From positions 1 to 23,827 of IMG/VR virus record IMGVR_UViG_3300029258_002041: DNA of 23,827 nt; one strand, written 5' to 3'. How positions within the stretch are numbered: position 1 is the first letter of the stretch; every line of letters begins with the position of its first letter. The translations under genes were made by a program, and so were the position numbers. Shown piece by piece: positions 7,701-23,786 of the stretch. The stretch is from a virus. The notes under the pieces are model-generated. The model did no database searches and was not told where the DNA came from. It was given only the letters and a program-made list of their open reading frames with translations.

Positions 7701-9512
7701 AACAAGCAACCCAAGCTGATCTGTTGTTTTCTTTGTATCAACGCCAAGCTGTCGTATAGCTTGGTCTATCTTGCGAAACGCTTCGCTTGCCTTTGTACCA
7801 ACAGCAGTAGTATCTGTTCCATATTTCCTCATCTCTGCTGTTATTTCAGTCATTCTGGCTTTCAGTTCATTGAGTTTGGCAGCCTGTGCTTCAGGACTCC
7901 AGCCTAAAAATCCACCTGTTGCCTTTTGTTTTCCAAGAACTGCACCAGTCTTTCTGGCTCTTGACAACTCTTCAATCAAGGCACTTACGGTCAACACTGT
8001 TTCTTTGAAAGAAATTGTTAAGTCACGAGCTTCTTTGTCTATGTTTTCAATGTTGGCAGCCGCTTTTGTAGCCGCAGCTTCGTCAATAATGCCCTGAGCC
8101 ATCACCGCTCTCAGATCAAGAACATTTCTATAAGTCTTGTCCAGTTCAATATTATATTTTTCTAATTGAACCAAGTCTGATATGAATTGTCGTTCTCTTC
8201 CTTTGTACGCGCCAGCACTATATGCCTGCAAAACCTGTCTCTCAGCTTCAGCAAGCAAATGTGTTGTCTCAGCCAATTTGACAACTTTGTCTCGATACTT
8301 TTCAGAAGCAGCCGCCGCTATTTTAAGACTGTTCTGTGTAGCCGCCGCAAACTGATAACCAGCATCAGTCGTGTAAATCCACTGTAGTTCGACTTTTTTC
8401 AAATTGTTATTCAGTCTGCTTGATTCATCTCCTATTCTTTTTAACACATCTGAGATTGGATCAACTTTTTCAGCAGCCAAAGCAATAGGCTTCAAAGTAG
8501 GCGTTCGTCTGAGCAAATTGTTATATACCTCAACCTGCACAATATTTTGCTGATAAACAGTCAACAACCTCTCCAAAAGATCAATCTCTTCACGTATTTC
8601 TTTGCCTGCTGTGCTCTCTCGTTGCACATCGTTAAGCGACCTATATGTCGCCAACAATTCAAGCAATCTCCCTCTATATTTATAAACATCATTGCCTAAT
8701 TCATCAAAATGCTTCTTTGCCCGTACAGCATCAGCAATATCCAACACCTTTAGCTCTTCAAATTTAAAAGACGTTGCCAAAATTCCCACTTCCCTTAACC
8801 CTACAACCAAACCATCTATTTCTTGCTTGGTGACTTTGAAACCCGCTCGCAATTTATCAATAATAGGCAAAATATTACGAAAAATTTGTATATCAGTCGG
8901 CCTAACCAACTCAAGCAATTTATCAAAGTCTTGTCGATCAAATTTGATGCTAATAGGCGCAGCTTTGGCTACCGCTTGCATTTTAGCAATCGCATTTTCA
9001 AAACCAGCAATTATCTCATCAAATTTTTCAGTTATAGGGCGTTCAGACGAACCACGACCATGAATATCTATAATAATCGTAGCTCCAGATATAGCTTGAA
9101 TCTCGGCTTGAAAAGCTTTACCCGCCTCCGCAGCCTGTTGCATGGTAGAAATAATATCCTGCACAGAAGTCTTAACAGTTAAAGCCATAGACTCTGACGC
9201 AATTGCTATTTCTCTATAGGCAAGCTCAATCTCATGCAGCCTTGCGATAAACTTGTTCATAAATCGAGTCATCGATGCACTAGTATTGCCTATAGTTCTA
9301 TTTACCTTTATGATTTGTTTTCTGATCACTTCATATCTGTTGGCTATTTTTTCAATTCTTTTCGCAACTTTGTCAAGTGTTGCTGTATCAATGCCCTTGC
9401 TTACTTCTTTAAGTTTTTTGTTGACACCTTTTAACTGCTTCTCAATCACCTTTGGTATTGTAGGCGCACCTTCCTCAGCTTTTACAGTTATATAAATATC
9501 AGTTCCAGCCAT
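1752..9512 (-). CDS. Tail tape measure protein (TP901-like core)
   Basis: At 2586 residues this is much the longest gene. It sets tail length by spanning the tube lumen during assembly. Residues 1-760 are mostly amphipathic helix and coiled coil. About residues 800-1105 carry the phage minor-tail/TP901-type core, with a Trp-Leu-Ile-Gly-Phe hydrophobic stretch and a long Ala/Gly/Glu-rich helical region ('GSAGLAAEESLSAFESTLKA', 'AGIAGRSLQVIFARMAKDAD'). Hydrophobic segments follow at about 1140-1175 and 1375-1400. Residues about 1700-2350 are heavily charged coiled coil. The C-terminus (about 2425-2525) has the typical 'GGAVSVRVSDGEAYIPKGMY' and 'PVGSYIVSRKG' pattern of tape measure ends. No muralytic motif was noticed. 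It starts 5 nt after the chaperone gene behind TAGGAG. Confidence 0.93.
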   Translation of the reverse strand: MAGTDIYITVKAEEGAPTIPKVIEKQLKGVNKKLKEVSKGIDTATLDKVAKRIEKIANRYEVIRKQIIKVNRTIGNTSASMTRFMNKFIARLHEIELAYREIAIASESMALTVKTSVQDIISTMQQAAEAGKAFQAEIQAISGATIIIDIHGRGSSERPITEKFDEIIAGFENAIAKMQAVAKAAPISIKFDRQDFDKLLELVRPTDIQIFRNILPIIDKLRAGFKVTKQEIDGLVVGLREVGILATSFKFEELKVLDIADAVRAKKHFDELGNDVYKYRGRLLELLATYRSLNDVQRESTAGKEIREEIDLLERLLTVYQQNIVQVEVYNNLLRRTPTLKPIALAAEKVDPISDVLKRIGDESSRLNNNLKKVELQWIYTTDAGYQFAAATQNSLKIAAAASEKYRDKVVKLAETTHLLAEAERQVLQAYSAGAYKGRERQFISDLVQLEKYNIELDKTYRNVLDLRAVMAQGIIDEAAATKAAANIENIDKEARDLTISFKETVLTVSALIEELSRARKTGAVLGKQKATGGFLGWSPEAQAAKLNELKARMTEITAEMRKYGTDTTAVGTKASEAFRKIDQAIRQLGVDTKKTTDQLGLLVEETMAATRIKVQAIRPIVDPKNFQALGKVIKGVGLPMSELEKKSALAAQRVKVLETELNNVSASAGAFSSGMSQASRSASILKSIVTALGKEYSMLVDTQAAIRTSMAAIELQTKKNSAATNRSYASLLGQNKAYQELKAAQKEVSAAMSRVTVQQAKYEKRLQESNLLMARSADASKAMARWTVDGFTQMIKSQSAWLIGFAIFFGAFDRLKSAIDSLIDSQDQLARAMRTVRSEIMSTAKVAKIMREEMYDAAVTMGAAFEETGELFYQLGSAGLAAEESLSAFESTLKAIIATEEEVADFTKLVAGIYKNFRKELAFVGNQTAQFTHINDVLVATFRDHIVEMSELRDGMKYSIATAHEVGVSFDMLAAILGVLNDNMIKAGIAGRSLQVIFARMAKDADKFSEAFDIEIDMNKPLDFMDVMEKVADKLNAGALTAEEVGTVFERLGLRGAKSFITLAKNIDDVNMAIAEIGSNSAGATEEMYNAMKDRPERILKEISAALDAVLRINVKPFVDAFLSVSKIIVDAIDAVETLDEKLGGMLGGIASVAAAFAAWKVSLLAVSSATSVLLKGVLKYQHINFAQYINMETQALSRFAKNSAVGAKAMFSLSQETKRTARETIGLRNAFADINKAILKESVAQFKGSTISASLFENQMIKTQASVYKYGSALGALNVAQKGIEAELKRGSITAAKFADAIRGNIDAATAYKRALIGAKDAQRKAHENLVIASRSAVGLSENLRVLTAAWQLAKSGAIGFSAALGITLQMLAKFASRLLNIYLTVTLVLEILKPLYNLFVTTSEEISEAIDKTNQSIAEQQKLVSKYSDAINAIEDYEDGYISLDKAAVKVVTAFKDIKGNIPDFDIGNIDEIKSKLISLKDEAEKIAKAYKEIAEFQAQALRAKNVEEVEKAMTNYTIAIEQTTYFGWLGAASMKEHAFRAKVFRNELKASAFAAGVYATELGVLNNKVERLSEGFEAGMVSAERLSKTKDTLQKKFKQFLAASEPLIDVIKKLDGDYSDLDDKTKNYIQTLLELRKETEKTLGIYGNYEEAARQMIDVIEGLVGSTEDLGNIFAQVADARNADQQISVIQNFFRAMSDEVDKHVKSLEVLPEGYDEVTYRTKLLADAFAEFGVVVDRDAASIDIMLEVLAKGIQNIGKITKEELLEFPDIFESNFLLASEIVRKYSLEIGRDIISVFEAGSPAQKALFEFVEHLQTQMENASNAIDQYFDDREIVLDLKLEIAKFEALLSLGDKFKKSFDAERQLKNARKLLKEIHDVASDIEGIALSDKFERMGLAIEKANKYFDVFDKVVGNVSNSITDASMKSQLFGNVTREGVSNAISAYRLLNEMLDDAVERMKKYAEAQLEAASTLRKMNAELDILKLLSQVGISVSGIISAEKKLNELVQDRKKAQEKINDLNEKSAEIRTKLRQISISQATLDNEQQKQRAKQYDDLFSQLKNINSQLSKQRDIIKKANDQEVSFNEELKFQEQIIRLLNNALVRTNDQIGMTTRELEREEQAFRDISTAASEISNKIGDITGNIGNQLGQQQKLLSNYDRQRDSIDRQIELIEEQNAYYTKRIDLIKKLIDLGVSDENLQDKLAAFLEKQERNHQKIFDLRKKQLGIANQQREIAKEMYDAIKKQGDAFSARAKVQAMAYANELLSSEEALNQMVVLLEQGVIPALTTMVLLIGKVAESFGAITADEMISILKQTKAIGKDLVDDNKENNKILDMTEEVIKRLGSKWSDVTRAANEAANEFREGSEITERARENVRESANNMDELAEATRSANGPLEQARDLTQQIADNLLTAANEMAGIGGGADNFANGGNGRGMQHGGAVSVRVSDGEAYIPKGMYDQNRRIFDLMNSGARLIRGQKGIDQIQTFLPVGSYIVSRKGVNANREFFETSMPARLYSGGQVGASGTEDPNIVSTTQGAEDMGSITLTLNVEGKPYTGDFVARKDVAKELKHELKREIARKIQ

Positions 9513-9517
9513 TGCAC

Positions 9518-10348
9518 TTATCTCCTAACAGGTGATTTACCGCCTTGTCCTTTAGAGCTTTTCTTTTCCAATTCACTTCTGACTTTGATTTCTTCACTTA
9601 GAACAATTTCTCTCGCTTCGTAAGACAAGTTTGATTGATCCATAATGCCACCCCTGTTTAACAAGGTATTGCTATTATTAGACCAAAACACCAAAGATAC
9701 CAGAAATCTCAGCTCGTCATTGATAAGCGACAAAGGACATTCATAAAACAGCCTTTGCCCAATTTGCAAAACAACAGATTTACCCTTCTCAGGTTTCTTT
9801 TCTTTTTTATTTTTCTGTAGAGCATATTTCGACACACGCTCTTTGTCTACTCGTATAGCATCATCCTCATCATCGGTATTGCTTTCGTTCTCTATTTTTT
9901 CAGTACCGAACTTTTGACAATTACGTGCCGCATTCAAGTGTTTTTTCAAGCATTCTTCGCAATTCCACGTTGATATATCTTTTTCTTCAGCATAAACATG
10001 AAAAGTCACAAGGCCCTTTATGGCATCTCTTTCTCTGTCGGTAAGAGTTGATATTTCTTTAACGTGATTTAAAATCTCAATCAAATATCGGTGCGGAATA
10101 CGATTCAAGCTTTTACGACTATATTCTACCGAACAACCACTGTCATCACGTAAATTGTCCCATGACACCAGACATGATTCCAGCAATCTCAACTGTTCAT
10201 GTGATGTTTCCGAATCAACAAAAGACAAATAAGGCCTGTGTCGGACAAGTAATTGCTTAACATAGAACACAGTTTGATTCCATTCCGGCACAGACCTATC
10301 ATCTTCAACCACATACCGAAAAATATTATCAGCATCAGGATTACGCAT
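9518..10348 (-). CDS. Tail assembly chaperone, second ORF (gpGT-like)
   Basis: This 276-residue protein lies between the tube and tape measure genes, the usual place for tail assembly chaperones, which bind the tape measure protein before tube polymerisation. Its N-terminal third repeats the pattern of the preceding ORF (SWDNLRDDSGCSVEY here, GWENLRDENGNIVEF there, followed by an 'IP...' helix), so both appear to carry the same domain. Residues C130, C133, H137 and C144 form a C-x2-C-x3-H-x6-C cluster that could bind zinc. A charged linker (about 150-190) leads to a hydrophobic domain (FYECPLSLINDEL, then a GGIMDQ turn). Its ATG overlaps the previous stop as TAATG. It may also be made as a fusion by -1 frameshifting. 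Confidence 0.7.
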   Translation of the reverse strand: MRNPDADNIFRYVVEDDRSVPEWNQTVFYVKQLLVRHRPYLSFVDSETSHEQLRLLESCLVSWDNLRDDSGCSVEYSRKSLNRIPHRYLIEILNHVKEISTLTDRERDAIKGLVTFHVYAEEKDISTWNCEECLKKHLNAARNCQKFGTEKIENESNTDDEDDAIRVDKERVSKYALQKNKKEKKPEKGKSVVLQIGQRLFYECPLSLINDELRFLVSLVFWSNNSNTLLNRGGIMDQSNLSYEAREIVLSEEIKVRSELEKKSSKGQGGKSPVRR

Positions 10349-10698
10349 TATTCTTCCGACTCTTCCCCCAAAATCTGATCAACCAATTCTCTTCTGATAC
10401 TGACTGGAATGATAGAAAACTGATCAATATCGCCTTTAAACTCTACGATATTACCATTTTCATCCCGTAAATTTTCCCATCCCTTAATGCCAGCCGACAG
10501 ATATTCAATTTGAGCCGATCCGGTTTTGATGCGCTCTTCTCGTTTCTTTCCTGTTCCCGATGCCGAATACAGTGTGTCTTCAATTCTTGCCAGTTTTTTA
10601 AACGGCACCAACTTCAAAATGAATACCGTCTGTTCTTCCGGCGGCAAACCTTCATCGCATTTGGGAATGTAACGTTGTTCTTTAGGCAAAGCCTTCAT
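10348..10698 (-). CDS. Tail assembly chaperone, first ORF (gpG-like)
   Basis: I place the start at the ATG at 10698 (116 residues), preceded by AAAGGAGA at a 10-nt spacing. The same frame is open further upstream to an ATG at 10947, but that codon abuts the terminator U-tract and has no ribosome binding site. The protein begins MKALPKEQRYIPKCDEG, has a 'QTVFILKLVPFKKLARIED' strand-helix region, a basic linker (GTGKKREERIK) and the conserved-looking 'GWENLRDENG' with W74. It is the small upstream partner of the two-ORF chaperone cassette. A UUUGGGG heptamer lies over its codons 110-111, and the -1 frame is open into the second ORF. Confidence 0.7.
   Translation of the reverse strand: MKALPKEQRYIPKCDEGLPPEEQTVFILKLVPFKKLARIEDTLYSASGTGKKREERIKTGSAQIEYLSAGIKGWENLRDENGNIVEFKGDIDQFSIIPVSIRRELVDQILGEESEE
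10366..10372 (-). other. UUUGGGG slippery heptamer for -1 frameshift in chaperone pair
   Basis: Read on the minus strand, the heptamer is T TTG GGG, with TTG (10371-10369) and GGG as zero-frame codons of the first chaperone ORF. This fits X XXY YYZ exactly. The -1 frame is open from here (GGA AGA GTC GGA AGA ATA) into the ATG of the second ORF. Slippage would give a product of about 393 residues: 111 from the first ORF, 6 junction residues and all 276 of the second. A programmed frameshift at this gene pair is widely conserved in long-tailed phages (lambda gpG/gpGT). The zero-frame stop lies 15 nt downstream of the heptamer. Efficiency of a U/G heptamer is uncertain. Confidence 0.55.
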
Positions 10699-10719
10699 AA
10701 TTTGGGTTCTCCTTTCAAG

Positions 10720-10743
10720 TTTGATTAAAAGTTTAATTAAAAG
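10720..10743 (-). repeat. Tandem 12-mer in the chaperone leader
   Basis: On the minus strand CTTTTAATTAAA is followed directly by CTTTTAATCAAA (one mismatch) and then CTT, just upstream of the chaperone ribosome binding site. Two copies in an AT-rich leader could be an operator, an A/U-rich translational enhancer or chance. Confidence 0.4.
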
Positions 10744-10783
10744 CTTCCTAGCTCTAATACTATAATAAAGACCATCGCTCTCA

Positions 10784-10812
10784 ATGATAATATAACAAAC
10801 ACCAATTTGCAA
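10784..10812 (-). promoter_or_regulatory. Candidate promoter for the chaperone/tape-measure unit
   Basis: On the minus strand TTGCAA (10812-10807) and TATCAT (10789-10784) are separated by 17 bp, about 85 nt before the chaperone ATG. It follows the terminator after the tube gene, where a restart of transcription is expected. The -35 hexamer is identical to that of the better promoter at 17977-18005. The -10 match is weak. Confidence 0.35.
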
Positions 10813-10947
10813 CCTTAAAGCACATACTTTCCATGTGGTTACAATTAATGCCTTCGTAAAAACAAAAAGTATAAATGGCAAGTGAAAGAACAGATATATC
10901 AACTCCAACACTGAAAACATCACTCTGTCAAATATTTGCCAACCCAT

Positions 10948-10981
10948 AAAAAAATAGGCGGAGTTTCTGACCTCCGCCTAT
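10948..10981 (-). terminator. Intrinsic terminator after the tail tube gene
   Basis: On the minus strand ATAGGCGGAG (10981-10972), an 8-nt loop and CTCCGCCTAT (10963-10954) form a perfect 10-bp GC-rich stem, and the T-tract runs directly on to 10948. It lies 27 nt after the tube stop codon. It should end or reduce transcription between the abundant tube protein and the less abundant chaperone and tape measure proteins. Confidence 0.9.
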
Positions 10982-11007
10982 CATCCCTCTTCATCCCATA
11001 TTTCAGG

Positions 11008-12504
11008 TTATATACTAGATTCGCTATTGACGAGAATGCAGTACGCTTCCGGGAGATTGTTCTCGTCATCGGGGAACGCTTGGAATGGCATGTCTACCGT
11101 GATCAAATTAGCGTCTGCCACAGTCGGAGTTGTGCCATTGAATTTGATTGACGGAAACACCACATACTTCTGTCTGAAGACATCAGAATCATCAATCTCC
11201 CCATCCACAGTATCATCAATGCAAGCGATTTCAGCCTTTGCAGCCAATCCATTGACAAACTTGGCATACATCAGCATATCATCAAACTCGATGTTAAATG
11301 TTCCTGTGACTTCCCGTTGCTGTTCCGGCAATTTAGCTCTGCCAATTTCACCGAACGGAATTTTATCAGGAAAGAGATTGTTGTTGATGGTGTATTCACC
11401 AGACATGATTTCGTAAGAAGTCGAATCAAAGAAGAATTCGCCCATAAACGAACTGAGAGGATCAGTATCAGACACAGAGCCACTTCCTGTAGTGCTTTGC
11501 AACGATACGGGAGCATTTATAGCATGATCCACTTCTATGCTGTTGTCGCCAGCCCCCGGAATACCAGTAAGCCTGTATTCATTGCTTACAATGGCCTTTC
11601 CGGTGTAAGTGATATTAGTTTCCTGTCCAATGATCAGCGTGCCGCCACCAGAAGGGAACATCCCGTATTCGGTAGCATTTCGCAACACAATGTAAGTGTC
11701 ACCAATACTTGCAGCCGCACCCAACAAACCAACAGACTGTTCAATCTTGCCCATCATTCCGTAAGTGCCAGTGCAAATATCGTTACTGGGAAACACTTCG
11801 TTCAAAGTATTGACTTTACATCCCGTATAGAAAAAGGCAACAATGTCCCTCAAGATTTCCAAACTCAACCCAGTCGGCAAAACAGGAGCCACATCAATCA
11901 AATGAGTATAGACCAAACTCCAATTGGTTGAATCCTCTGAAAAAATCCGAGATCCCTTGCTGTAATCAGTGGAAAGGGTACCTCCACCTGTCGCTCCTAC
12001 GCCAGTAAAGGTATTGTTGTCAGTGCCACCAATACCGCTGTAAGAGAATGATTCATAAGTAAGATCCTTGGTGGTCAAATCTCTCTGGATAATAACACCA
12101 TTACCACCTCCACTATCAAAGCCCTCAGTTACGAGATTTCTGTCTGTAGGAAGATCTGAAGTTGAATCGTTATCGAATGCCATAGTGCTAATGGCTGCTA
12201 TTCCACCATCTACACCCTGCATCGTTAAATGTTCACCATATCCATGTTTCAAAAATATACTTTGGCCTTCGGTGTTCTGTTCATAATTGATGTCACCACC
12301 CACAGAACTCGATCCAATTACCGAAGTGTTATAAGCTCTGTCATCACGCAACTCGGCGGATACCAGCACATTTAGTTCGTTAACCACACTCTCAGAAGTA
12401 AATCGGAGAACATGATCTAATGTCGCCATCTGTCCATAGGTAGTTTCCTCGCCATAGTGGATCTTTGCCCTTGCACCCACAGCCGGTCTTGTAGCATCAC
12501 CCAT
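11008..12504 (-). CDS. Major tail tube protein (Phage_tube_2-like)
   Basis: This 498-residue protein begins MGDATRPAVGARAKIHYGEE and continues with a tube-type N-terminus: 'GEETTYGQ', 'LRFTSESV', 'SVIGSSSVGGDINYE'. The C-terminal half has 'YTINNNLFPDKIPFG' and 'REVTGTFNIEFDD', the strand pattern of tail tube proteins. It is long for the family because of two beta-rich inserts: residues about 110-195 ('LTYESFSYSGIGG', 'FTGVG', ending 'YSKGSRIF') and about 255-340 ('TLIIGQETNITYTGKA', 'YRLTGIPGAG'). These may project from the tube. It sits between the terminator-type tail gene and the chaperones, has an AGGAGGT ribosome binding site 8 nt upstream, and is followed by a strong terminator, as expected for an abundant structural protein. 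A paralogue lies at 434-1615. Confidence 0.8.
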   Translation of the reverse strand: MGDATRPAVGARAKIHYGEETTYGQMATLDHVLRFTSESVVNELNVLVSAELRDDRAYNTSVIGSSSVGGDINYEQNTEGQSIFLKHGYGEHLTMQGVDGGIAAISTMAFDNDSTSDLPTDRNLVTEGFDSGGGNGVIIQRDLTTKDLTYESFSYSGIGGTDNNTFTGVGATGGGTLSTDYSKGSRIFSEDSTNWSLVYTHLIDVAPVLPTGLSLEILRDIVAFFYTGCKVNTLNEVFPSNDICTGTYGMMGKIEQSVGLLGAAASIGDTYIVLRNATEYGMFPSGGGTLIIGQETNITYTGKAIVSNEYRLTGIPGAGDNSIEVDHAINAPVSLQSTTGSGSVSDTDPLSSFMGEFFFDSTSYEIMSGEYTINNNLFPDKIPFGEIGRAKLPEQQREVTGTFNIEFDDMLMYAKFVNGLAAKAEIACIDDTVDGEIDDSDVFRQKYVVFPSIKFNGTTPTVADANLITVDMPFQAFPDDENNLPEAYCILVNSESSI

Positions 12505-12519
12505 AGAAAAACCTCCTAA

Positions 12520-13002
12520 TTAATCAACAAACTTATAATACTTTCGCTTGACAATCCTAAATATCACAACCGCCGAATAAAACATGCCATTAGTCCTTGC
12601 CAGTCTTACGCCCGGCATTGCACTTTCAACAAATGTGCGACGATCATGAATATAGCCGTCCAAATTAGAATGTACTGAGAATAGGTTCATTATTCTTTCA
12701 GTGTTTAACCGCATTTTTTCAAACATTAAGTTTTCGCTGAACTCTTCTTGGTAGTATATAAGTTGATAGACGTTTTCCATGTCATATTCCCGACCTCCCA
12801 CTTTCATATTCTTCTGCGGCCCCATAACACATTCACTCCACGCTACAGACAAGGCAGGAGTTGCAGGAACAAACAATACGTCTTGATTGAATATATTCTT
12901 TTCGTCAAAGTCTAAATCAAAGTCAGACTGATAAACCTTGAAGGTTTCAACAATGTTTAAAGACCCATCATTAATATAATCTTTGTTGTCAATGACAGCC
13001 AT
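12520..13002 (-). CDS. Putative tail terminator protein
   Basis: This 160-residue protein starts MAVIDNKDYINDGSLNIVET. A central 'KNMKVGGREYDMENVYQLIYY' region is followed by a helix (FEKMRLNTERIMNLF) and a final basic strand (AVVIFRIVKRKYYKF). The order of strands and helix, the size, and the position directly before the tube gene fit a gpU-like tail terminator, which caps the tube at its head-proximal end. The assignment rests mostly on synteny. It starts one base after the previous stop codon (TAACATG), indicating coupled translation. Confidence 0.45.
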   Translation of the reverse strand: MAVIDNKDYINDGSLNIVETFKVYQSDFDLDFDEKNIFNQDVLFVPATPALSVAWSECVMGPQKNMKVGGREYDMENVYQLIYYQEEFSENLMFEKMRLNTERIMNLFSVHSNLDGYIHDRRTFVESAMPGVRLARTNGMFYSAVVIFRIVKRKYYKFVD

Positions 13003-14493: not shown

Positions 14494-15765
14494 CTAAAAT
14501 ACCGTTGCCACAATAAAGTCATCGTTGCGATAACGAACAGGAAGTCCATTTACACCACCGATAACCTCAACCTTCTTGGGATCACTCACTTCATTGATGA
14601 TCGTTTCAGCAAAAATTCCGGGTTTCGGAGACAATACGTTGCCAGCACCATATTCCGATAAAGTGGTATAGAAGTTGCCATATGTGCTTTCGCCCGTATT
14701 GACAGCCGACGGAGCCATCGCCCGAATAATCACCTTATTGTCCGGCAAGAAAGGCTTGCTCGTCAGAACATAAGTGCCTGCCGCAAACGCATACTCCAAA
14801 TTCTCACTCACAGTGACTGTAGTGGTTGTCGGAGTCGCAGCCACAGTTACGAATTGATCCTGAAGCACCGTTCCATCGGTTGCATAGCTGATCAGCCGAA
14901 TGGTATCACCCGATTCAATCCCGCTTGCATCATCTACCACAAACGAAGTCGTGCCCGCTGTAGCATTAGATGCCAGTTCAGTCGTCAAAGTGTAATGACC
15001 ATCCCACTTAGTGAACTTAATATCGCCCACATAAGTTTGCAGAATCAAATACAAGTTGTCCATAGTCAGGATATCCCGCCTGCCACCAGTAATAATGGTG
15101 TTTTTCACCTGTCGCACGGCAGTATTGGCAAGCAAAAGCCTTTCAATATAAGCATTGTAAATCACTTCAACAGGCTTAAAACCAGTTCCCCGGAACAAGT
15201 ACATCCATTCAAACAAGTCATTAAGGGGGTTTGCACTGGCAGTGGTAGTCCACTTGTCAGCAGCAGCCGTGATAGTCGGTTTGAATCTGGTGGGAATATT
15301 GTAATCAACAGTGAACTTGATACGATTGCTATTGATAGTCAATTGCCCCATGATCGCCTGCCATAGCGAATGCTCAATCCGAGTATCTATCCTACGCCGC
15401 AGAGCAGCAACCTTCTTGGCGATGAAGGTTTTGACATTTTCAACTTCATTCAAAGTGCCCAGTCTACGCACAGATTGAAGCTGGTGTGGCATCACATGAA
15501 ATTTCTCACGGAAATATGCGGGAGCCATCCTACGCTGATAGAATCCACCACCGGCAATGATGGGAGACTCTGCACCCTGAGCAACCGCCTGTGTCATGCC
15601 GCCAATATCCAGCTCAACATCCCACATAACTTCATGTGCATTAATCCCCTTCAAAGGGAAGAGTTTACTCGCCATGAAGTCAGGAGATATTGCAACTTGC
15701 TGAATTACACCCGAAACGTACTGGGTTTTTAAATAAGGATACCGACCTAACAGTTCATTCAACAT
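14494..15765 (-). CDS. Major capsid protein (lambda gpE-like, HK97 fold)
   Basis: This 423-residue protein begins MLNELLGRYPYLKTQYVSGV. The N-terminal part has features of the Phage_cap_E family: 'ISPDFMASKLFP', 'EVMWDVELD', 'YFREKFHVMPHQL', an Arg-rich helix 'KKVAALRRRIDTRIEHSLWQ', and the late 'NPLNDLFEWMY' region. The end has 'PVRYRNDDFIVATVF', typical of the capsid C-terminal P-domain strand. Residues about 255-337 are a Thr/Val/Ala-rich beta insert ('TTSFVVDDASGIESGDTI'), probably a surface domain. It follows the protease/scaffold and small-protein genes. The ribosome binding site is exceptionally complete (AAAGGAGGTGAT) and overlaps the upstream stop, consistent with high expression. 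Confidence 0.85.
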   Translation of the reverse strand: MLNELLGRYPYLKTQYVSGVIQQVAISPDFMASKLFPLKGINAHEVMWDVELDIGGMTQAVAQGAESPIIAGGGFYQRRMAPAYFREKFHVMPHQLQSVRRLGTLNEVENVKTFIAKKVAALRRRIDTRIEHSLWQAIMGQLTINSNRIKFTVDYNIPTRFKPTITAAADKWTTTASANPLNDLFEWMYLFRGTGFKPVEVIYNAYIERLLLANTAVRQVKNTIITGGRRDILTMDNLYLILQTYVGDIKFTKWDGHYTLTTELASNATAGTTSFVVDDASGIESGDTIRLISYATDGTVLQDQFVTVAATPTTTTVTVSENLEYAFAAGTYVLTSKPFLPDNKVIIRAMAPSAVNTGESTYGNFYTTLSEYGAGNVLSPKPGIFAETIINEVSDPKKVEVIGGVNGLPVRYRNDDFIVATVF

Positions 15766-15770
15766 TATGC

Positions 15771-15782
15771 ATCACCTCCTTT
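15771..15782 (-). promoter_or_regulatory. Near-complete Shine-Dalgarno of the capsid gene
   Basis: AAAGGAGGTGAT on the minus strand complements almost the whole 3' end of bacterial 16S rRNA and overlaps the TAA of the preceding gene. It fixes the capsid ATG at 15765 and explains high yield. Confidence 0.85.
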
Positions 15783-16158
15783 AGACTATCTGCGGTCTGA
15801 TAATAATACGTTGCACATCGGCCCAAGTAACCGCTGTAGTCTCAGTAACAAAGCCATATTTGACAATGACCCTATCAAAGAGAGCAGTGATTTGGTTCCG
15901 TCCATTTGACAGACTATAAATATTTTCTGTGGTTAGATATACCTCGCTAGAGGCATGAACTGCATTATTGAAAGGCACTACCAAGCCACTAGTAGCATCA
16001 AAAACACACGTCACAAAAGGCGGCAACTCTGTACCGTAACCAGCAGCATCCCATGCGGTAGCATCAAGAGTACCACTTAAAGTGACATAATCAGCACTAG
16101 CAAGGCCGGTCTTAAATGCCCATTTTCCTACTATTTGACCAGATCCTACTTCCGGCAT
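15781..16158 (-). CDS. Putative head decoration protein, unknown family
   Basis: This 125-residue protein begins MPEVGSGQIVGKWAFKTGLA. It is almost entirely strand- and turn-like, rich in Val, Thr, Ala and Gly, with no long helix or membrane segment. Size and composition match small capsid-decoration proteins, and its place between scaffold and capsid genes is that of lambda gpD. I recognise no family signature, so decoration is an inference from position. It has an AGGAGGT ribosome binding site 7 nt before the ATG, and its stop codon overlaps the capsid Shine-Dalgarno. Confidence 0.5.
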   Translation of the reverse strand: MPEVGSGQIVGKWAFKTGLASADYVTLSGTLDATAWDAAGYGTELPPFVTCVFDATSGLVVPFNNAVHASSEVYLTTENIYSLSNGRNQITALFDRVIVKYGFVTETTAVTWADVQRIIIRPQIV

Positions 16159-16176
16159 CTTTAAACCTCCTGTATT

Positions 16177-16809
16177 TTATTGGCTCACAACCGGGATGTT
16201 CATCTTTTTCAGGTCTTCACGAATGCTGTCAACATCCATACCTAACCTTTTCTCATCCTCAGTGGGGGCAGTGGTGACAGAAATCTCTTCCGACAAGAAT
16301 AAGGAAGAAGGCATGTTCGCAAAAATATCCTTGAACATCTCCATCAAAGTCACGTTCTTGTCCTCATCGAGCTTGATCACTTGACTCGCAGTATCAAGAT
16401 GAATATACTTACCCACCGTTTCAATTACCGCAGGAGGCACTTTCTTGTCTGCCAGTTCCTTCAGGAATCCATCTTTGGCAAGGTTGAAGCGTTCATCACG
16501 AGCAATTTTGAGATCACCATCCATTAGCTTAATACGTTTCGACATCTCTTCATTGCTATCAGCCAACTTGGTGACGATATCTCCAAGCCGAGTCTTTTCA
16601 TTGCTAAGCTTTTGGTTGGCTTCCTGCAATTCTTTTAATTGAGCAGTGACTTCCTCAAGATTGACAGTGCCACCACCATCATCCTTTTTCTTGCTTTTAT
16701 CGTCAGTTGGTTCTTTTTTCTTATTTTTTTTATCACCATCATTAGCGGGATCTTCAATGTTGACATTCGGATCTTTCGGATCTTTGTTCTTGGTGTCTTT
16801 TTCACCCAT
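16177..16809 (-). CDS. Nested scaffold protein (Mu Z / lambda Nu3-like)
   Basis: An in-frame ATG within the protease gene (codon 380) has a perfect GGAGGT Shine-Dalgarno 7 nt upstream, stronger than that of the full-length gene. The 210-residue product starts MGEKDTKNKDPKDPN and has a highly charged N-terminal linker, a coiled coil (TAQLKELQEANQKLSNEKTR and beyond) and a helical C-terminus ending NIPVVSQ. That is exactly the scaffold part without the protease. Separate scaffold from a start nested in the protease gene is known for Mu gpI/gpZ and lambda C/Nu3. It would give the large scaffold excess needed to shape the prohead. Confidence 0.8.
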   Translation of the reverse strand: MGEKDTKNKDPKDPNVNIEDPANDGDKKNKKKEPTDDKSKKKDDGGGTVNLEEVTAQLKELQEANQKLSNEKTRLGDIVTKLADSNEEMSKRIKLMDGDLKIARDERFNLAKDGFLKELADKKVPPAVIETVGKYIHLDTASQVIKLDEDKNVTLMEMFKDIFANMPSSLFLSEEISVTTAPTEDEKRLGMDVDSIREDLKKMNIPVVSQ

Positions 16810-17946
16810 ATTTTTGACCTCCAAAATTAATTCATCTAGTTTTTTACCTTGTCGTATTTCGTCTTTCAATAAAGCGATTAGTTCGTTCAACTTTTCATTG
16901 ACATTCTCTGTTTCCGTGTCTTCAAAAACAAAAGGAGTGACATCAAAGCCGTCTTCTCTGCTTTTGTTGATTATATCCTCTGAAAACATCATCGGTTTAA
17001 GGTTGGGAATAAATGGCATGTTGGTAAAAGCACCACCCATAACAGCAGCACCATGAGATTTGCCACTTTCCTTGTCCCGATAATCGTCAACATAAGTAGA
17101 GCTGAAATACCTATACTTTTTAGATTTTAAAGCACTCTTACCCTGTTCTGTCAGTTCAGCAGTGCCTACTAGCGTATAACCATCACGTTCATTAGGTTTG
17201 ATATTTAATTCTTTTATCCAAGAAGAAGCTCCCTTGTTTGGCTCATGCGAAAAATCAGTAGAAACATCTCGACCAAGAACCTTATCGTTAAAATTCTTGA
17301 CCATCTGTTTCAATTTGTCTTTGGTGACATTCAGCTTGCCATATGACGGATGATTGTAATTTCCGGTTCGCAACATTTCGATTTCAACAATATCTTTATC
17401 AGAAGGTTCTGTAAGCTCAACCATGGTCAAGAAATTACCTTCTGACATCTCTTTGTCTTCCTTGACACAATGCGTTTTCCGTAAATTCTCTGCTTTCTCC
17501 ATGACACCGGGATATTTTGATGCCAAAGGTGTTCCGGTTCGTGCACCTTTAAGTGCTCGTATTACAGTATTTAAAGCAGTGCAATTTACAGAACCATCAG
17601 CATCTTTATAAGGGAACTTTTTGATTTTGCCTTTTCCAGTTTTTGATTCTTTCACCCACAAAAAATGACTGTCAGGAACTTCTTTTCTTGCCGTTGGTGC
17701 TTTCCATGTCTCCGCCAAATCACAAGCTTCATAATCTGCATATTCGGCTATATACTCCAAAGCATCCTCAGCCAATGCAAATTCATCAAGAAACTCACTT
17801 TCAGACATCTCGTATTCTTTTGCGGCTTCTTGGATGGAAACCCCATGCTTTTTGTAATAAGATATAGCACAAATCTGTTGTGCCTGTCCTCTAGGGGTTC
17901 CTTTCTCAACCATATTTCCAACACATGCAAGATATTCTTTCGGCAT
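16177..17946 (-). CDS. Prohead protease (Mu gpI-like) with C-terminal scaffold
   Basis: This 589-residue protein would cleave itself and other head proteins during prohead maturation. I choose the ATG at 17946 because GAGG lies 6 nt before it; the frame is open two codons further to a TTG at 17952 that would abut GAGG. Residues 3-40 form a small Cys-containing helical motif and about 75-165 an accessory domain ('TWKAPTARKEVPD...'). The protease core covers about 170-315, with 'STDFSHEPNKGASSWIKEL' (His near 234), 'YRYFSSTYVDDY' and 'GAAVMGGAFTNMPFIP', the pattern of Mu-like prophage I proteins. Residues 380-589 are a Lys/Asp-rich linker, a coiled coil and an acidic helical tail, a typical scaffold. 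A promoter lies just upstream. A strong internal start at 16809 makes the scaffold separately. Confidence 0.85.
   Translation of the reverse strand: MPKEYLACVGNMVEKGTPRGQAQQICAISYYKKHGVSIQEAAKEYEMSESEFLDEFALAEDALEYIAEYADYEACDLAETWKAPTARKEVPDSHFLWVKESKTGKGKIKKFPYKDADGSVNCTALNTVIRALKGARTGTPLASKYPGVMEKAENLRKTHCVKEDKEMSEGNFLTMVELTEPSDKDIVEIEMLRTGNYNHPSYGKLNVTKDKLKQMVKNFNDKVLGRDVSTDFSHEPNKGASSWIKELNIKPNERDGYTLVGTAELTEQGKSALKSKKYRYFSSTYVDDYRDKESGKSHGAAVMGGAFTNMPFIPNLKPMMFSEDIINKSREDGFDVTPFVFEDTETENVNEKLNELIALLKDEIRQGKKLDELILEVKNMGEKDTKNKDPKDPNVNIEDPANDGDKKNKKKEPTDDKSKKKDDGGGTVNLEEVTAQLKELQEANQKLSNEKTRLGDIVTKLADSNEEMSKRIKLMDGDLKIARDERFNLAKDGFLKELADKKVPPAVIETVGKYIHLDTASQVIKLDEDKNVTLMEMFKDIFANMPSSLFLSEEISVTTAPTEDEKRLGMDVDSIREDLKKMNIPVVSQ
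16817..16822 (-). promoter_or_regulatory. Internal Shine-Dalgarno GGAGGT for the nested scaffold
   Basis: Minus-strand GGAGGT followed by 7 nt (CAAAAAT) and ATG GGT GAA. The match is ideal, and so is the spacing, inside an otherwise Lys/Glu-coding stretch of the protease gene. Confidence 0.85.
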
Positions 17947-17976
17947 ATCCAACCTCGCTAAATCACGCTAAAAATA

Positions 17977-18005
17977 ATTATCGCAAACAAATTCCATAAT
18001 TGCAA
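17977..18005 (-). promoter_or_regulatory. Sigma70-like promoter for the head/tail operon
   Basis: On the minus strand TTGCAA (18005-18000) and GATAAT (17982-17977) are 17 bp apart, with a TGC extended -10 directly before GATAAT. It lies in the only sizeable gap (88 nt) between the amidase and protease genes, about 30 nt before the protease start. Confidence 0.65.
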
Positions 18006-18040
18006 GTTTTTTTTAAAATAGCTAATATTTGTGTATCATG

Positions 18041-18631
18041 CTATATCACGACTTCAACATTATGATGCCATTCGACAATAGATTTTGCCATCATTTTTAT
18101 TAATTTGACATAATTTTCACGAAAGGAAAAAGTTATTAAATCAGTATCATTACTAATAAAAAATAATTCTGCCAACACAACAGATGCCTTGATATTTCTT
18201 GTTAGATATAAATCTTTGCGACGTTTAATACCACGCCACATATGAAATGAAAAATAAAGCGCATTATTAAACGAAAAATTTAAACAAAATCTGTACGCAG
18301 AATTACCAATACCATCATATAGAACTTCTGCACCACTTACTTTTTTATCACTGAAAGAATTGAGATGGATTTCAATGAAAAGACTCAAGTCTTCTATCTT
18401 GTTCGCTCTTTTAGCCTTCAGTTTTAAAGACTGTCCATAAGCTGTTATATCCTCTGAATTATCAATGATCAGAGGAATTATTTCTATATCTCGTGGTATT
18501 TTATCACTTGCATATATTTTGAAATCATCAACAAACTTGCTGACATAATCATATTCATAGACGCCTTGTCGTTCATTGTGAGCACCTCTAAAAACAGCAT
18601 CATGGCCAGCACATAAGATGACTTTTCTCAT
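18041..18631 (-). CDS. N-acetylmuramoyl-L-alanine amidase endolysin (Amidase_3)
   Basis: This 196-residue single-domain enzyme would cleave the amide bond between muramic acid and the stem peptide during host lysis. The zinc-amidase residues are in order: H10 in 'VILCAGHDAVFRGA', E26 in 'GVYEYDYV', H89 in 'FIEIHLNSF', and the catalytic Glu E155 in 'VVLAELFFISND'. There is no signal peptide and no cell-wall-binding repeat, so it should need a holin, which is not recognisable next to it. The ATG overlaps the upstream stop in TAATG, so it belongs to the adhesion/lysis operon rather than to a separate lysis cassette. No terminator follows; the next unit has its own promoter. Confidence 0.88.
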   Translation of the reverse strand: MRKVILCAGHDAVFRGAHNERQGVYEYDYVSKFVDDFKIYASDKIPRDIEIIPLIIDNSEDITAYGQSLKLKAKRANKIEDLSLFIEIHLNSFSDKKVSGAEVLYDGIGNSAYRFCLNFSFNNALYFSFHMWRGIKRRKDLYLTRNIKASVVLAELFFISNDTDLITFSFRENYVKLIKMMAKSIVEWHHNVEVVI

Positions 18632-19146
18632 TATCTTGCACCTGCAACTACATCCAGTGTTGCACCTGTTTGCAAATATTTAACAAGCACCCTGACATAT
18701 TTAGCTGCCCCCACCATAACTTCCTGAGCAGGCGAAATATATTTGCCGCTATCTGAACGCTTGTAATATCCCGCTGAAAAACTCATGCTTCTCAGTGTGC
18801 CAAGTATTGCAGTAGCATCATTATCATAATAAAGCACCGGAACAAATATGGCTGCACCATTGTTTGTTGAAAATTCAGCACCTAGATGAAGAATAGTTTT
18901 GTCGCCCACAAAAATAAAGGGATACGTTACATCATCTGTATATGCTGATAAATCAGACGTTGTATCAGCAGATGTCAGTGACTCTCTATAAAAAACAGCA
19001 TCCGATCCAACCTTTAAAGATGCTGGAACAAAAAGTTGCAAAACACATTCATTTTCACCTGCATCGGTTCTTGTCTCGCATGATAATTCAGCAGCTATAG
19101 AAGTTTGAACTGTTATTGGTTCATCTACTTTTACTTGTTTTCCCAT
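18631..19146 (-). CDS. Small virion-associated protein, paralogue of the upstream gene
   Basis: This 171-residue protein begins MGKQVKVDEPITVQTSIAAE. It is strand-rich with no membrane segment. Two blocks match the neighbouring 193-residue protein: 'FIFVGDKTILHLGAEF...AIFVPVLYYDNDATAI' (about residues 73-118) and 'GAAKYVRVLVKYLQTG' (about 147-162). The family is not recognised. The position directly after the LamG-repeat protein suggests an accessory fibre or tail-surface protein. The ribosome binding site is TAGGAG, 6 nt before ATG. Its stop overlaps the amidase start. Confidence 0.6.
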   Translation of the reverse strand: MGKQVKVDEPITVQTSIAAELSCETRTDAGENECVLQLFVPASLKVGSDAVFYRESLTSADTTSDLSAYTDDVTYPFIFVGDKTILHLGAEFSTNNGAAIFVPVLYYDNDATAILGTLRSMSFSAGYYKRSDSGKYISPAQEVMVGAAKYVRVLVKYLQTGATLDVVAGAR

Positions 19147-19155
19147 GATTTGCTC

Positions 19156-19737
19156 CTATATGGCTCCAAGATAGATTTTGCCAACTCCAAGATTGGGGAA
19201 AAAGCCAAATCCATCATAGTTTCTCTGAAGGCTTAACACCCGCACATATTTTGCTGCTCCTATAATCCTTGTAACTACACGGCTTATATATAAAGAACTG
19301 CTGATTTTCCAGACACATTGCCCATAATCATCAGTTTCACGACTAAAATCTATAGTTATAGGCACAGCACAAGATATGAGAGATGCATTGTTATTGTTAT
19401 GATAAAGAGCAGGTGTAAAAGTGTACTTCTCTGCTGCTCCTATTGTATCCCCGACAAAAGCAAAAACCAAGATGTTTTTGTCACCTACAAAATAATAAGG
19501 TTTGGATGAAAGAGCTATGTTTGTTTGCCATTCATTGACAAATGTTCCAGAGCCGGGCGCATAATATGGCGTTAAAACCACAGACGATGGTATAGCAACC
19601 TTGCCAACCCGAACATATTCTAAAAGCATATCATCAGTAGACGATGGTTCCACAGTCGGATCTTGTGTTTCTTCAGCCCCTAGATTGAAATAGAGATTGT
19701 TTCTCGTAGGAGGATAACATTCAAATGCCTTGACCAT
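19156..19737 (-). CDS. Small virion-associated protein, paralogue of the downstream gene
   Basis: This 193-residue protein begins MVKAFECYPPTRNNLYFNLG. It shares with the next gene a central 'YYFVGDKNILVFAF...FTPALYHNNNNASLI' block (about residues 79-122) and a 'GAAKYVRVLSLQRN' block near the C-terminus. This points to tandem duplication followed by strong divergence. The N-terminal 60 residues and the C-terminal 'NLGVGKIYLGAI' are its own. No family is recognised; the fold is likely all-beta. Its ATG overlaps the stop of the LamG protein in TAATG behind GAGGG, so the two are translationally coupled and probably work in the same virion structure. Confidence 0.6.
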   Translation of the reverse strand: MVKAFECYPPTRNNLYFNLGAEETQDPTVEPSSTDDMLLEYVRVGKVAIPSSVVLTPYYAPGSGTFVNEWQTNIALSSKPYYFVGDKNILVFAFVGDTIGAAEKYTFTPALYHNNNNASLISCAVPITIDFSRETDDYGQCVWKISSSLYISRVVTRIIGAAKYVRVLSLQRNYDGFGFFPNLGVGKIYLGAI

Positions 19738-22700
19738 TATAATCCCTCGCCCAACGCATCCATTTGATATTCTATTTGCGGTTCAATGTTGTTGAACCTG
19801 TCAATGCTGCCTTTCATTTGTAAATATCTTTCATGCACTTCGATACCTGACAATTCGTGATTTGTGATGTTCATAAAGCCAAGCTCACCTAAGAAACATC
19901 TGGTATTCGTAAAATCATCACCATGAGGCTGACGATTATAATAACCGCCAAAAGTCAGATAGGAATTCCTCATGCGGCATGGATACCTAGGCGTTACGCT
20001 ATCAAAATCACCAGAAACACCCACTGTAGAATTGCTGTCTTTTTCTGGAGGCATTGCTTTGCCGTCAACATAGACATTAAAACGTCGCCCTATATCATCA
20101 GTTGAAATGTAAGTAATGACAATATAATGCCACATATTCCCTTCATAGGCTTTTTCAATAGTCCAATAGCCCGGCGTGTCACTTCCAAGGCTGCTTACTT
20201 TGAACTTCAGAGATCCCTTGTAAGCCGTTAAACTCCATTGACGTAAATGAGTAGGCGGCATATCATCATTGTCGCCCTCAGTCCATTTTTCAACCAAATG
20301 AGCAGTATATTCGTCGGCTATCGAATCTATTTTGACCAGCATTTCGATTGAGAACTCGGTATTGTGTTCTTCATCGAATTGAACAGCTTTAATTCGTCGC
20401 ATATTAAAGCCAAACCGATCATAATTGTCAACACTACCATCATTGTAAGGCATCAGTGTGCCACCATCAACTGTGCTCTCATTGTATCTGCTTAAAAATA
20501 GCGCATCACTTCGCTCTAAATTGTCGCCGCCTTCAACATCATAATAGTCAGGATCACCAGTGATGATTGTGCCATAATAAGTAGGTTTCCATTTTACTGA
20601 AGTGCCAATCGGTGAATAGCCATAGCAACACGTAGCCGTAGAGTCTGGATTTTGACGAATATTTTGTGAATCGCCTCTTGAAAAACCGGAGTAAAGCATC
20701 GGATAGACATGGAACAATTGTCTGAGTTCAATGGCAAGAGGCAAAAACATGCCGTAGGAATAAGGATCATAACTTATTTTACCCAATTGCGGAACAAGCA
20801 TTGCCGGATCTGAATCCTTGATCTTGTCTGTTGCAAATATTCTGTCTGGATATTGACCATATTTGCGCACAGCTCCATATATCAGCACTCCATTTAAAGT
20901 TTGCCAAGGGTTGCGCCTGTTGGCTCCCCATATTACTCGCCTTTGGTTTTTTCCACCTTGTATATAAATTTTTGTCTGTGTTGTGTCATAATAAGTTTGA
21001 ACGCCATCAACATAGCAATACCACGCTTCATCTTCGATAAAAGAAATAGACACACAATATCTTGTAAATTCCTCAAGCCCAATTGCCATCACCCTTTCAA
21101 CTTCTGAAAGAGGGCCGCCATTATCAGAATAAACATGCGTCAAAATAAGGCTATGGGTATTGTCACCTTGATCCTCTAATGTTATTTTCCATGCCGGTCT
21201 TTGTCCCCAATCTTCTTCGCCACGCACACATAAAAATTGGTCATCTTCGTCCTCAAGGCATCGCCCATGAACTTCAAACTCTATTTCCCAATTAAAATCA
21301 TATCGATGTTCGACATTGCCTGTTCTGAAATTCAAATCTTCCTGATCAAGGAGCTTAGAATTGTGCTGTCGAAATTTTGACACATAATTCGAGTCTTCAA
21401 CAGGGTAAGGATTAGCAGCGTTTCTGCGTCTAAATTCAATGCTTTCATGAGTATAAGCAGTGTCTTTCACCAAATCAGTTTTAACATCTGAAAAATCATC
21501 AAATCGACATTCAGTATCAGTATCGCCAAAATCAAGATGCCGATCCACGCCGCTTATGTTTCTATATTCACCTGTAAAGAACGATCTAGGCGACATATAT
21601 GAGCATTGATCCCACGTCCCTAACAAATAAGCATCATGAATGCCCCGGCATTTAATCTCATCTCTGCCAATTTCTTCGTGTGTCCGCACCCATGCAGCCA
21701 TTCGTATTTCATCAATTGTGCCATTCAATGCAAGTTTTGATTCACCAACACCTACATAATCAAAAGCTCCTATGTAGATGGAATTGTTTTTCGGAGTTGA
21801 AGGTGTTCCTCTAGTCTCATAAAAAATGACAGAGCTTGAAAGGCTTTCTTCTGTCACTATGTCATAATTACATACTTTATCACCACCAACATACCCAGTC
21901 AAAAATCTGCCATCCCATGTCACAGCAACTTTTGTAATGCTTGCACGAGGCATATTGCCAATTTTGCGATTGACTAAAACAGCATTGGAAGGATTGCCAT
22001 CAACATCAAAAAGCATTTCAAAAAACAGCGAAGGATGATCATTAATATCATTAGCAAAATACAACCACCAAGAATGATACGGCGCATCACCTATTCTTTT
22101 GCCGATGATAGTCTGTCCATAGGTATAATCGCCATAACAATTGACAATAGCTTCAATAGTAAATCTTTGCCAATCAAAATAAGGATCATTGTCTTCACTA
22201 TCTAAACCAACAACAACAAAGTCATCGCTTCCGTCAAACTCAAGACTCTTTTTGCCTAACCCATAAGCAAAACTGCCACTAGACGGATCAAAATTGCTTA
22301 AAAGACCATTATACCCCTCCACCCTTTCAGGAACCACATACTCGCCTACATTTTCTTCTTCTGTTTCGTTAAAATCCCACATAGCAGCAATTTGAGGAAT
22401 TTCGACAAAAAGCCGTGTTATATCAACACCCTCATATCCACCTTCCCACTCATCAGTCAAGACATAAAAAATGCCGCCATCAATATCACACCCATAAAGA
22501 GAACCAAAATACTTATTGCCATCAGCATCATAAGCAACACAATAAGCACCCAAGCTATATCTCAAATAAGTACCAGTTGTTTTAAATTCAGCCCCGCCAC
22601 TTTCGCCTGACTCCATATAAAACATGCAGTCTGTAGAGTCATTTTCTACTCGCCCTGAAAAATAAACACTAGTCCAGTCGCCATAAGAAGCACTGCTATA

Positions 22701-23219
22701 TGTTTTGTCAAACCCCTCTTCTGCTTCATCGTCAAGAAACTCAAATCTTAGATCTCCACTTATAACCTTGATCCAAGATTTGCCAATAACATAATCTCCC
22801 TCGTCTGCTTCAAGAGCTTCAACTGCAAAGCCTTCTCCTGACATATCAGTTTTAATATATGCTCCTGTAGAAATATTTAAAGGCAAACCAGATGTGATTT
22901 GATTACTTACATCACCTGTTGAATCAAGACCATTATTAACCCAATCCTCATCAGGCACATAAACATTTCCATGCTCTAAACTCCAACTGCTCGAAAAGTT
23001 TGGATATTCAATGAAATCCAAATCATAACTGATGGAAAAAATCAGATCGAACAACCACCTGTAATTGGTAGAATCACCAGCAATAGGGATTATTTCAGGA
23101 TATTCTTCTCCTAGATCATCAAAATGAAAAGTACCACCCCGGATCGGAAGCTCTATAAAACCTACCGATGGCTTTAATACTTTGTCTCCATACATCTCGG
23201 CATACGGATCAAAAGACAT
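19737..23219 (-). CDS. Large LamG/concanavalin-repeat virion protein (adhesin candidate)
   Basis: This 1160-residue acidic protein is rich in Trp, Tyr, Asp and Gly. Three LamG-like jelly rolls can be traced. The first, about 280-512, runs 'AMWDFNETEEENVGEY', 'KKSLEFDGSDDFVVVG', 'FTIEAIVNC', 'KVAVTWDGRFLTGYVGG', 'NGTIDEIRMAAWVRT'. The second, about 643-785, includes 'WEIEFEVHGRC' and 'AWYCYVDGVQTYY'. The third, about 955-1130, runs 'FSIEMLVKIDS', 'WHYIVITYIS', 'FNVYVDGKAMPP', 'FLGELGFMNIT'. The first 280 residues hold another beta-sandwich-like region resembling a carbohydrate-binding module. Such folds bind glycans, so a tail fibre, tail-tip or capsid adhesin is likely. No signal peptide is visible. 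The start has AAAGG 8 nt upstream and lies 3 nt after the receiver-like gene, giving an operon. Confidence 0.7.
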   Translation of the reverse strand: MSFDPYAEMYGDKVLKPSVGFIELPIRGGTFHFDDLGEEYPEIIPIAGDSTNYRWLFDLIFSISYDLDFIEYPNFSSSWSLEHGNVYVPDEDWVNNGLDSTGDVSNQITSGLPLNISTGAYIKTDMSGEGFAVEALEADEGDYVIGKSWIKVISGDLRFEFLDDEAEEGFDKTYSSASYGDWTSVYFSGRVENDSTDCMFYMESGESGGAEFKTTGTYLRYSLGAYCVAYDADGNKYFGSLYGCDIDGGIFYVLTDEWEGGYEGVDITRLFVEIPQIAAMWDFNETEEENVGEYVVPERVEGYNGLLSNFDPSSGSFAYGLGKKSLEFDGSDDFVVVGLDSEDNDPYFDWQRFTIEAIVNCYGDYTYGQTIIGKRIGDAPYHSWWLYFANDINDHPSLFFEMLFDVDGNPSNAVLVNRKIGNMPRASITKVAVTWDGRFLTGYVGGDKVCNYDIVTEESLSSSVIFYETRGTPSTPKNNSIYIGAFDYVGVGESKLALNGTIDEIRMAAWVRTHEEIGRDEIKCRGIHDAYLLGTWDQCSYMSPRSFFTGEYRNISGVDRHLDFGDTDTECRFDDFSDVKTDLVKDTAYTHESIEFRRRNAANPYPVEDSNYVSKFRQHNSKLLDQEDLNFRTGNVEHRYDFNWEIEFEVHGRCLEDEDDQFLCVRGEEDWGQRPAWKITLEDQGDNTHSLILTHVYSDNGGPLSEVERVMAIGLEEFTRYCVSISFIEDEAWYCYVDGVQTYYDTTQTKIYIQGGKNQRRVIWGANRRNPWQTLNGVLIYGAVRKYGQYPDRIFATDKIKDSDPAMLVPQLGKISYDPYSYGMFLPLAIELRQLFHVYPMLYSGFSRGDSQNIRQNPDSTATCCYGYSPIGTSVKWKPTYYGTIITGDPDYYDVEGGDNLERSDALFLSRYNESTVDGGTLMPYNDGSVDNYDRFGFNMRRIKAVQFDEEHNTEFSIEMLVKIDSIADEYTAHLVEKWTEGDNDDMPPTHLRQWSLTAYKGSLKFKVSSLGSDTPGYWTIEKAYEGNMWHYIVITYISTDDIGRRFNVYVDGKAMPPEKDSNSTVGVSGDFDSVTPRYPCRMRNSYLTFGGYYNRQPHGDDFTNTRCFLGELGFMNITNHELSGIEVHERYLQMKGSIDRFNNIEPQIEYQMDALGEGL

Positions 23220-23222: not shown

Positions 23223-23786
23223 CTATACCTTTTTGGCGACTAACTTGCCACCATTTGTTTCAACCTTTTTTAGAATTTTCTCCAAACGATGATTGGTTTC
23301 TTCTTGAACCAGTTCTAGTTTGTGCATGATGCCATCTATGGTAGAATCTTTGAAAACACCGTCGAGCCGTTCCTGTTCTTTTTTTTCTTTCTTGATTTTG
23401 CGTTCAATCACATGACTTACCGTAAATCGCAAATTGTTGGTATCGAATGGCTCTTTGACAAAAGAATGAATAATCCCTTTTTTCATTTTTTCTGTTAATG
23501 TGACAAAATTTGCATTCCTTGTCAACAATATCCGAAAAACATGAGGATATATGTCTTTTATTTCTCGCAAAAAAGAAAATTCATCATCACTCTTTTCGAT
23601 ATTATTAGACAAAATGACATCAATATCAAACTCTTTCAGAAAATTTGCAGCCATTCTAACATTGTCAGCAAAATAAACTTTGTATGGCTCACTTTCCAAA
23701 GCATTTTTGATCAATGCCAACAGTTCATGATCATCATCAACAATCAAAACATTTATGACTCTTTTTATAGGCGGAACAAGTTGCAT
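23223..23786 (-). CDS. Pseudo-receiver (response-regulator-like) protein with coiled-coil tail
   Basis: Residues about 10-127 of this 187-residue protein follow the CheY-like receiver fold. 'INVLIVDDDHELL' supplies acidic D17/D18, 'RILLTRNAN' supplies T89, and 'HSFVKEPFD' supplies the conserved Lys K111 and following Pro. The phosphoacceptor strand reads 'DIDVILSNNIEKSDDEFSFL', where relatives have 'DVVxSDxxMPxMxGxEFL'. N61 therefore replaces the phosphorylated Asp, and the MPxMxG loop is lost. Residues about 128-187 are charged, probably a coiled coil, with no DNA-binding domain or enzyme. I infer a phosphorylation-independent interaction module. It has GAGAGG 6 nt before its ATG and ends 3 nt before the LamG gene. 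Confidence 0.75.
   Translation of the reverse strand: MQLVPPIKRVINVLIVDDDHELLALIKNALESEPYKVYFADNVRMAANFLKEFDIDVILSNNIEKSDDEFSFLREIKDIYPHVFRILLTRNANFVTLTEKMKKGIIHSFVKEPFDTNNLRFTVSHVIERKIKKEKKEQERLDGVFKDSTIDGIMHKLELVQEETNHRLEKILKKVETNGGKLVAKKV

Follow-up and report, generated by a model that had tools for sequence, protein, structure and literature searches.

A virus record of 23.8 kb is analysed here and called the window. Its minus strand carries one late operon, which contains, in this order, the genes of a receiver, a LamG protein, two small conserved proteins, an Amidase_3 protein (four genes downstream of the receiver) and a Mu-like head protease; after the protease come a small protein occupying the decoration position, a capsid-E major capsid protein (MCP), head-tail genes, a minor tail protein and the tape measure. 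The presence of MCP, protease, tape measure and minor tail genes supports the original prediction that a pseudo-receiver lies in a phage structural operon. Upstream of the receiver gene the contig runs for only 41 nt more, which leaves the upstream neighbour of the gene outside it. By gene position alone, the LamG protein would be a virion part. The features are:

23223–23786, minus strand: stand-alone receiver gene, 187 aa, read as a pseudo-receiver (open reading frame, Response_reg match, AlphaFold2, Foldseek)
23427–23750, minus strand: REC domain, residues 13–120 (PF00072 match)
23604–23606, minus strand: codon AAT of Asn61 at the phosphoacceptor Asp site (sequence and alignments)
23451–23453, minus strand: codon of Glu112 at the position of the conserved Lys of the K-P motif (alignments)
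23226–23399, minus strand: C-terminal helical, coiled-coil-like tail, residues 130–187 (AlphaFold2 helices; alignment with the REC-HD-GYP linker of NF053512)
19737–23219, minus strand: LamG-containing protein, 1160 aa (Laminin_G_3, 4.1e-11; homologue in L007)
19156–19737, minus strand: conserved cassette protein, 193 aa (40% identity to a 214-aa protein of L007)
18631–19146, minus strand: conserved cassette protein, 171 aa (56% identity to a 173-aa protein of L007)
18041–18631, minus strand: Amidase_3, putative endolysin (Pfam, 6.7e-16; phrog_435 endolysin, 2.6e-25)
16177–17952, minus strand: Mu-like head maturation protease (PF10123, 6.2e-12; phrog_328)
14494–15765, minus strand: major capsid protein, Phage_cap_E (PF03864, 7.3e-31; 60% identity to the MCP of L007)

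Two minor tail proteins of the window (434–1615 and 11008–12504) both match phrog_290; they lie on either side of the tape measure gene and are probably paralogues. In L024, homologues of the second are encoded in tandem (14935–17019 and 17105–19174).

The receiver gene is an intact open reading frame of 187 codons on the minus strand with an ATG start, a Shine-Dalgarno-like stretch and a gene-like positional GC (0.47/0.22/0.32), and its stop is separated from the ATG of the large LamG gene by 3 nt, as predicted. Pfam Response_reg matches residues 13–120 with E = 1.4e-12 and 48.2 bits (cut-off 30.2), and a PDB sequence search gave 28 chains at E ≤ 1e-3, the best being 3hv2 (4e-10). An AlphaFold model from the single sequence reached a pLDDT of only 48.8 and was replaced by one from a 7-row alignment (mean pLDDT 77.6), which shows a (beta-alpha)5 core, where the pLDDT per block is about 84–93 except for the 61–70 loop (65) and the N-terminus, and two helices after the core (residues 116–147 and 150–177). 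Foldseek found 590 PDB matches to this model at E ≤ 0.001, again with 3hv2, the REC of an HD-domain protein, at the top (TM(target) 0.85–0.88). The protein ends after the helical tail and has no output domain, as had been claimed from the sequence. It is a genuine receiver fold consisting of REC and helical tail; the predicted fold is borne out by the Pfam, PDB, AlphaFold and Foldseek results alike.

Alignment with solved and bacterial receivers placed Asn61 in the phospho-Asp column of NtrC-type and HD-GYP receivers and confirmed the acidic pair Asp17/Asp18 and Thr89, all three as in the original prediction. Its further claim, a retained Lys111-x-Pro, was wrong: the catalytic Lys, which in the aligned receivers stands immediately before Pro (K-P), has its column at Glu112 (Glu112-Pro113), and Lys111 is off by one position. 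In the model beta5 comprises residues 108–111, from which the side chains of neighbouring residues near this strand should face opposite ways. Thus, two of the five catalytic positions are gone (Asn61, Glu112). The MPxMDG loop, correctly reported as missing, is replaced by NIEKSDDE, with Lys65 and Glu69 in place of the D+4 Pro and the D+8 Gly, and Thr89 is followed by Arg90 at a position usually occupied by Gly. Phe109 is the aromatic residue at K-3, so that both Thr89 and the K-3 aromatic, the Y-T coupling positions of receivers (PMC12632262), are retained. Of the features of a canonical phosphorylatable receiver, the window protein therefore has the acidic pair and the Thr and lacks the phospho-Asp and the Lys-Pro. 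A pseudo-receiver is a protein recognised as a receiver but without the Asp or another of the five residues (PMC12632262); under this definition the window protein is, judged from its sequence, a pseudo-receiver and specifically an aspartate-less receiver.

The closest phage seen, found in a profile scan, is L007 (record G001, IMGVR_UViG_3300028840_004168, 129.9 kb), which shares with the window a cassette of the same order: REC, LamG, p214, p173, amidase, protease and MCP. Identities between the two phages are 60% for the MCP, 56% for p171, 40% for p193 and 29% each for the LamG protein and the receiver; in a REC tree the pairing of the two receivers is unsupported, only L041 and L042 being a well supported pair. 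The L007 receiver (169 aa), the stop of which overlaps the LamG start, has all catalytic residues (Asp15/16, Asp59, Thr87, Lys110-Pro111) and is potentially phosphorylatable. Since this syntenic receiver bears the Asp, the Asp-less state of the window receiver is derived and not a family trait. Homologues with Asp at this site had been named with the original prediction as a finding that would refute it, and they do exist: besides L007, two distant stand-alone RECs have the Asp. Because Glu112, Arg90 and the missing D+4 Pro and D+8 Gly accompany Asn61, this does not turn Asn61 into an error; it points to a loss within this lineage. We regard the REC fold combined with a derived loss of the Asp as almost certain.

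Both receivers have as best NCBIfam match NF053512 (REC-HD-GYP, NosR family), with 9.6e-21 (next match 6.8e-11) for the window and 1.2e-43 (next match 3.4e-20) for L007, and both alignments run through REC and the linker helix. Among plasmid proteins related to the L007 REC, most top matches carry the annotation HD-domain phosphohydrolase. An HD_5/HD-GYP domain was found in none of the records G000 (the window), G001, G003, G008 and G021, and the similarity to REC-HD-GYP proteins covers REC and linker without the C-terminal phosphodiesterase domain. The match to NF053512 and the lack of HD-GYP in these records indicate that the phage gene resembles a regulator of the c-di-GMP phosphodiesterase kind reduced to its input half, the enzyme being absent. 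Very probably, to go by these alignments, the window and L007 receivers stem from the REC and signalling-helix half of an RpfG-like REC-HD-GYP regulator that lost the phosphodiesterase; bacteria were probably the source of the receiver, which would have become blind to phosphorylation later, in the window lineage. Newly seen here are the syntenic homologue with Asp and the descent from REC-HD-GYP proteins.

What reads as a complete REC-HD-GYP regulator of 362 aa is encoded at 9914–11002 of L008/L009, on viral contigs of 211 and 119 kb.

In IMG/VR, scans with single proteins (receiver, MCP, LamG) returned no relatives, and alignment-based scans found them; 22 MCP-related loci were obtained. PF00072 was searched in 20 virus records, made up of the window itself, 17 MCP relatives and two REC-HD-GYP contigs from the profile scan. 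Stand-alone RECs of 173–175 aa, with the Asp kept and of K-G type, were also present in G003 and G008, two more distant phages of the same capsid type, and none was found with PF00072 in the five other MCP-family records of about 96–140 kb. The RECs of G003 and G008 are of another subtype, their genes lie elsewhere in the late operon, and neither phage has a LamG homologue, which was seen in the window and L007 alone; these RECs are therefore best read as separate recruitments. The L041 and L042 receivers, likewise differing in subtype and in their place within the late operon, may be independent acquisitions. Tblastn against INPHARED gave no more than weak matches for P0001; the matches of the RECs of L007 and L043 were mostly contigs without annotation or records resembling bacterial contamination, with no informative context. 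An MCP search of genome_contigs for a host yielded three contigs without host assignment.

All five readable stand-alone phage RECs adjoin, or are fused to, a coiled-coil/membrane protein, usually with a hydrolase near, a pattern that was noticed after the fact in few lineages, with coiled coils judged by eye and membrane helices by a hydropathy threshold:

L007: neighbour of 148 aa, coiled coil, transmembrane helix 8–26
L038 (G003): neighbour of 168 aa, coiled coil, one transmembrane helix
L039 (G008): neighbour of 156 aa, coiled coil, one transmembrane helix
L044: neighbour of 102 aa, coiled coil, transmembrane helix borderline and below threshold
L043: REC, coil and transmembrane helix in a single polypeptide

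The membrane proteins of L038 and L039 are 37% identical, and a coiled-coil membrane protein of this G003/G008 type was not detected in REC-less relatives. None of the neighbours matched recognised holins. The hydrolases are Amidase_3 in the window and in L007 (in G001 the sole amidase of this kind), patatin in L039 and Amidase_2 in L044; in L043 no lysis genes are in view. Resemblance between receiver tail and partner coil is weak (4 of 500 shuffles in L007, elsewhere not significant).

Several of these loci hold further genes of interest. In L039 a Pfam-confirmed patatin-like phospholipase (8216–9007), and in L038 a protein similar by reading (11071–11895), lie beside the receiver and the coiled-coil membrane protein in the late operon. 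L043, a 46.6-kb viral contig, encodes the 244-aa REC-coil-TM fusion (9974–10708) and then a PAS-histidine kinase together with another receiver, which stands alone (10590–12927). In L044 (75.5 kb, viral) the stand-alone receiver has the small coiled-coil protein on one side and an endolysin-like Amidase_2 gene on the other (9691–10956). Upstream of the coiled-coil gene of L007 is that of a 202-aa protein (8909–9517), which matches phrog_1128 and nothing in Pfam or PDB and reads like a papain-type (NlpC/P60-like) enzyme. G001 has further small membrane genes elsewhere; a holin-like 91-aa gene has, as read from the sequence, nuclease-like genes and others that are not structural as neighbours.

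As the best explanation overall we tentatively propose that the window protein is a phosphorylation-independent late adaptor, perhaps in a membrane/lysis step. REC face and helical tail would form a late-made protein-binding module, whose contact with its partner would in the window lineage have been freed from phosphorylation. To judge from the neighbours, the likeliest partner would be the small coiled-coil/membrane protein whose gene adjoins those of stand-alone phage receivers, which would place the adaptor in a membrane/lysis or late host-control step. A membrane/lysis role is favoured because coiled-coil/membrane neighbours and nearby hydrolases recur at phage receivers; for the window receiver such a partner is conceivable, if doubtful. 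It is a long shot that phages repeatedly recruit bacterial RECs into a late membrane/lysis module in which the REC docks on a coiled-coil membrane partner. If they did, lysis or late host control would be gated through the docked REC by the signalling state of the host or, for the Asp-less form, by something else. The recurring link of receiver and small membrane protein in late operons might tie the two-component signalling of the host to late functions of the phage.

The main rival to the membrane/lysis role is a decoy, as already suggested in the original prediction, or a dominant negative: the REC and helix fragment would bind a host histidine kinase, or co-dimerise with a host REC-HD-GYP phosphodiesterase, and thereby block signalling or c-di-GMP turnover, the Asp-less form binding without turnover. 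REC-HD-GYP ancestry without the catalytic domain fits this model. So does G001, in which no HATPase_c or histidine kinase was found, so that any phosphate on the L007 receiver, or its partner, would have to be host-derived. There is also a precedent in PIT4 of Pseudomonas phage LSL4, a phage protein that acts on two-component systems by binding histidine kinases (PMC10714779). However, PIT4 is an early gene and the window receiver a late one, and most bacterial REC matches are about 27–39% identical, so that none was found to mimic a given host protein closely. On balance a decoy seems rather unlikely.

The original prediction also offered the receiver as a scaffold for the downstream LamG protein; as scaffold, chaperone or virion partner it would fit the 3-nt gap in the window, the overlapping stop and start in L007 and the restriction of the LamG homologue to the two phages with this REC type. 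This idea is weakened, and in our view improbable, because related phages that lack a LamG homologue also have stand-alone receivers; moreover, the LamG proteins, given their low identity between window and L007, could just travel with the cassette. Still less probable is that a captured receiver is in decay and no longer has a function: the loss of two catalytic residues and of the D+4 and D+8 positions relative to L007 would agree with decay, but the frame is intact with gene-like GC and a Shine-Dalgarno-like stretch, core and tail are conserved and spacing is tight in a compact operon. A sequencing or assembly error at codon 61 is scarcely credible, although AAT is one base from GAT (Asp), because Glu112 for Lys, the losses of the MPxMDG loop with its D+4 Pro and D+8 Gly, and Arg90 for Gly co-occur and together exceed a one-base change.

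A late adaptor remains our preferred reading, and it can be set beside known systems. A literature search found nothing on phage-encoded or stand-alone receivers, and a word search found no mention of phage in PMC12632262 or PMC4395418. PHROG 731, REC-like phage proteins, is matched by the window receiver (4.2e-10, residues 11–163) and also by the L007, L038, L039, L043 and L044 RECs; no informative isolate-phage neighbour was found for it. With the RpfG-like REC-HD-GYP regulators of NF053512 the window protein shares the motifs RILLTG.. and G.I..F..(K)PFD and the helical linker. Unlike them, the window and L007 proteins have no HD-GYP domain and are sited in a phage late operon, and of the two only the window receiver has lost the catalytic Asp and Lys. 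What receivers do without phosphorylation has been called an unresolved question (PMC12632262), for which the same stand-alone receiver, phosphorylatable in one and aspartate-less in the other of two related phages, is a natural experiment. The window protein lacks the phospho-Asp like the known aspartate-less receivers (ALR/PsR), and its Asn61 corresponds to Asn53 at the phospho-Asp site of RitR (PMC4395418); it differs from RitR and other known members in being phage-encoded and in having no output domain.
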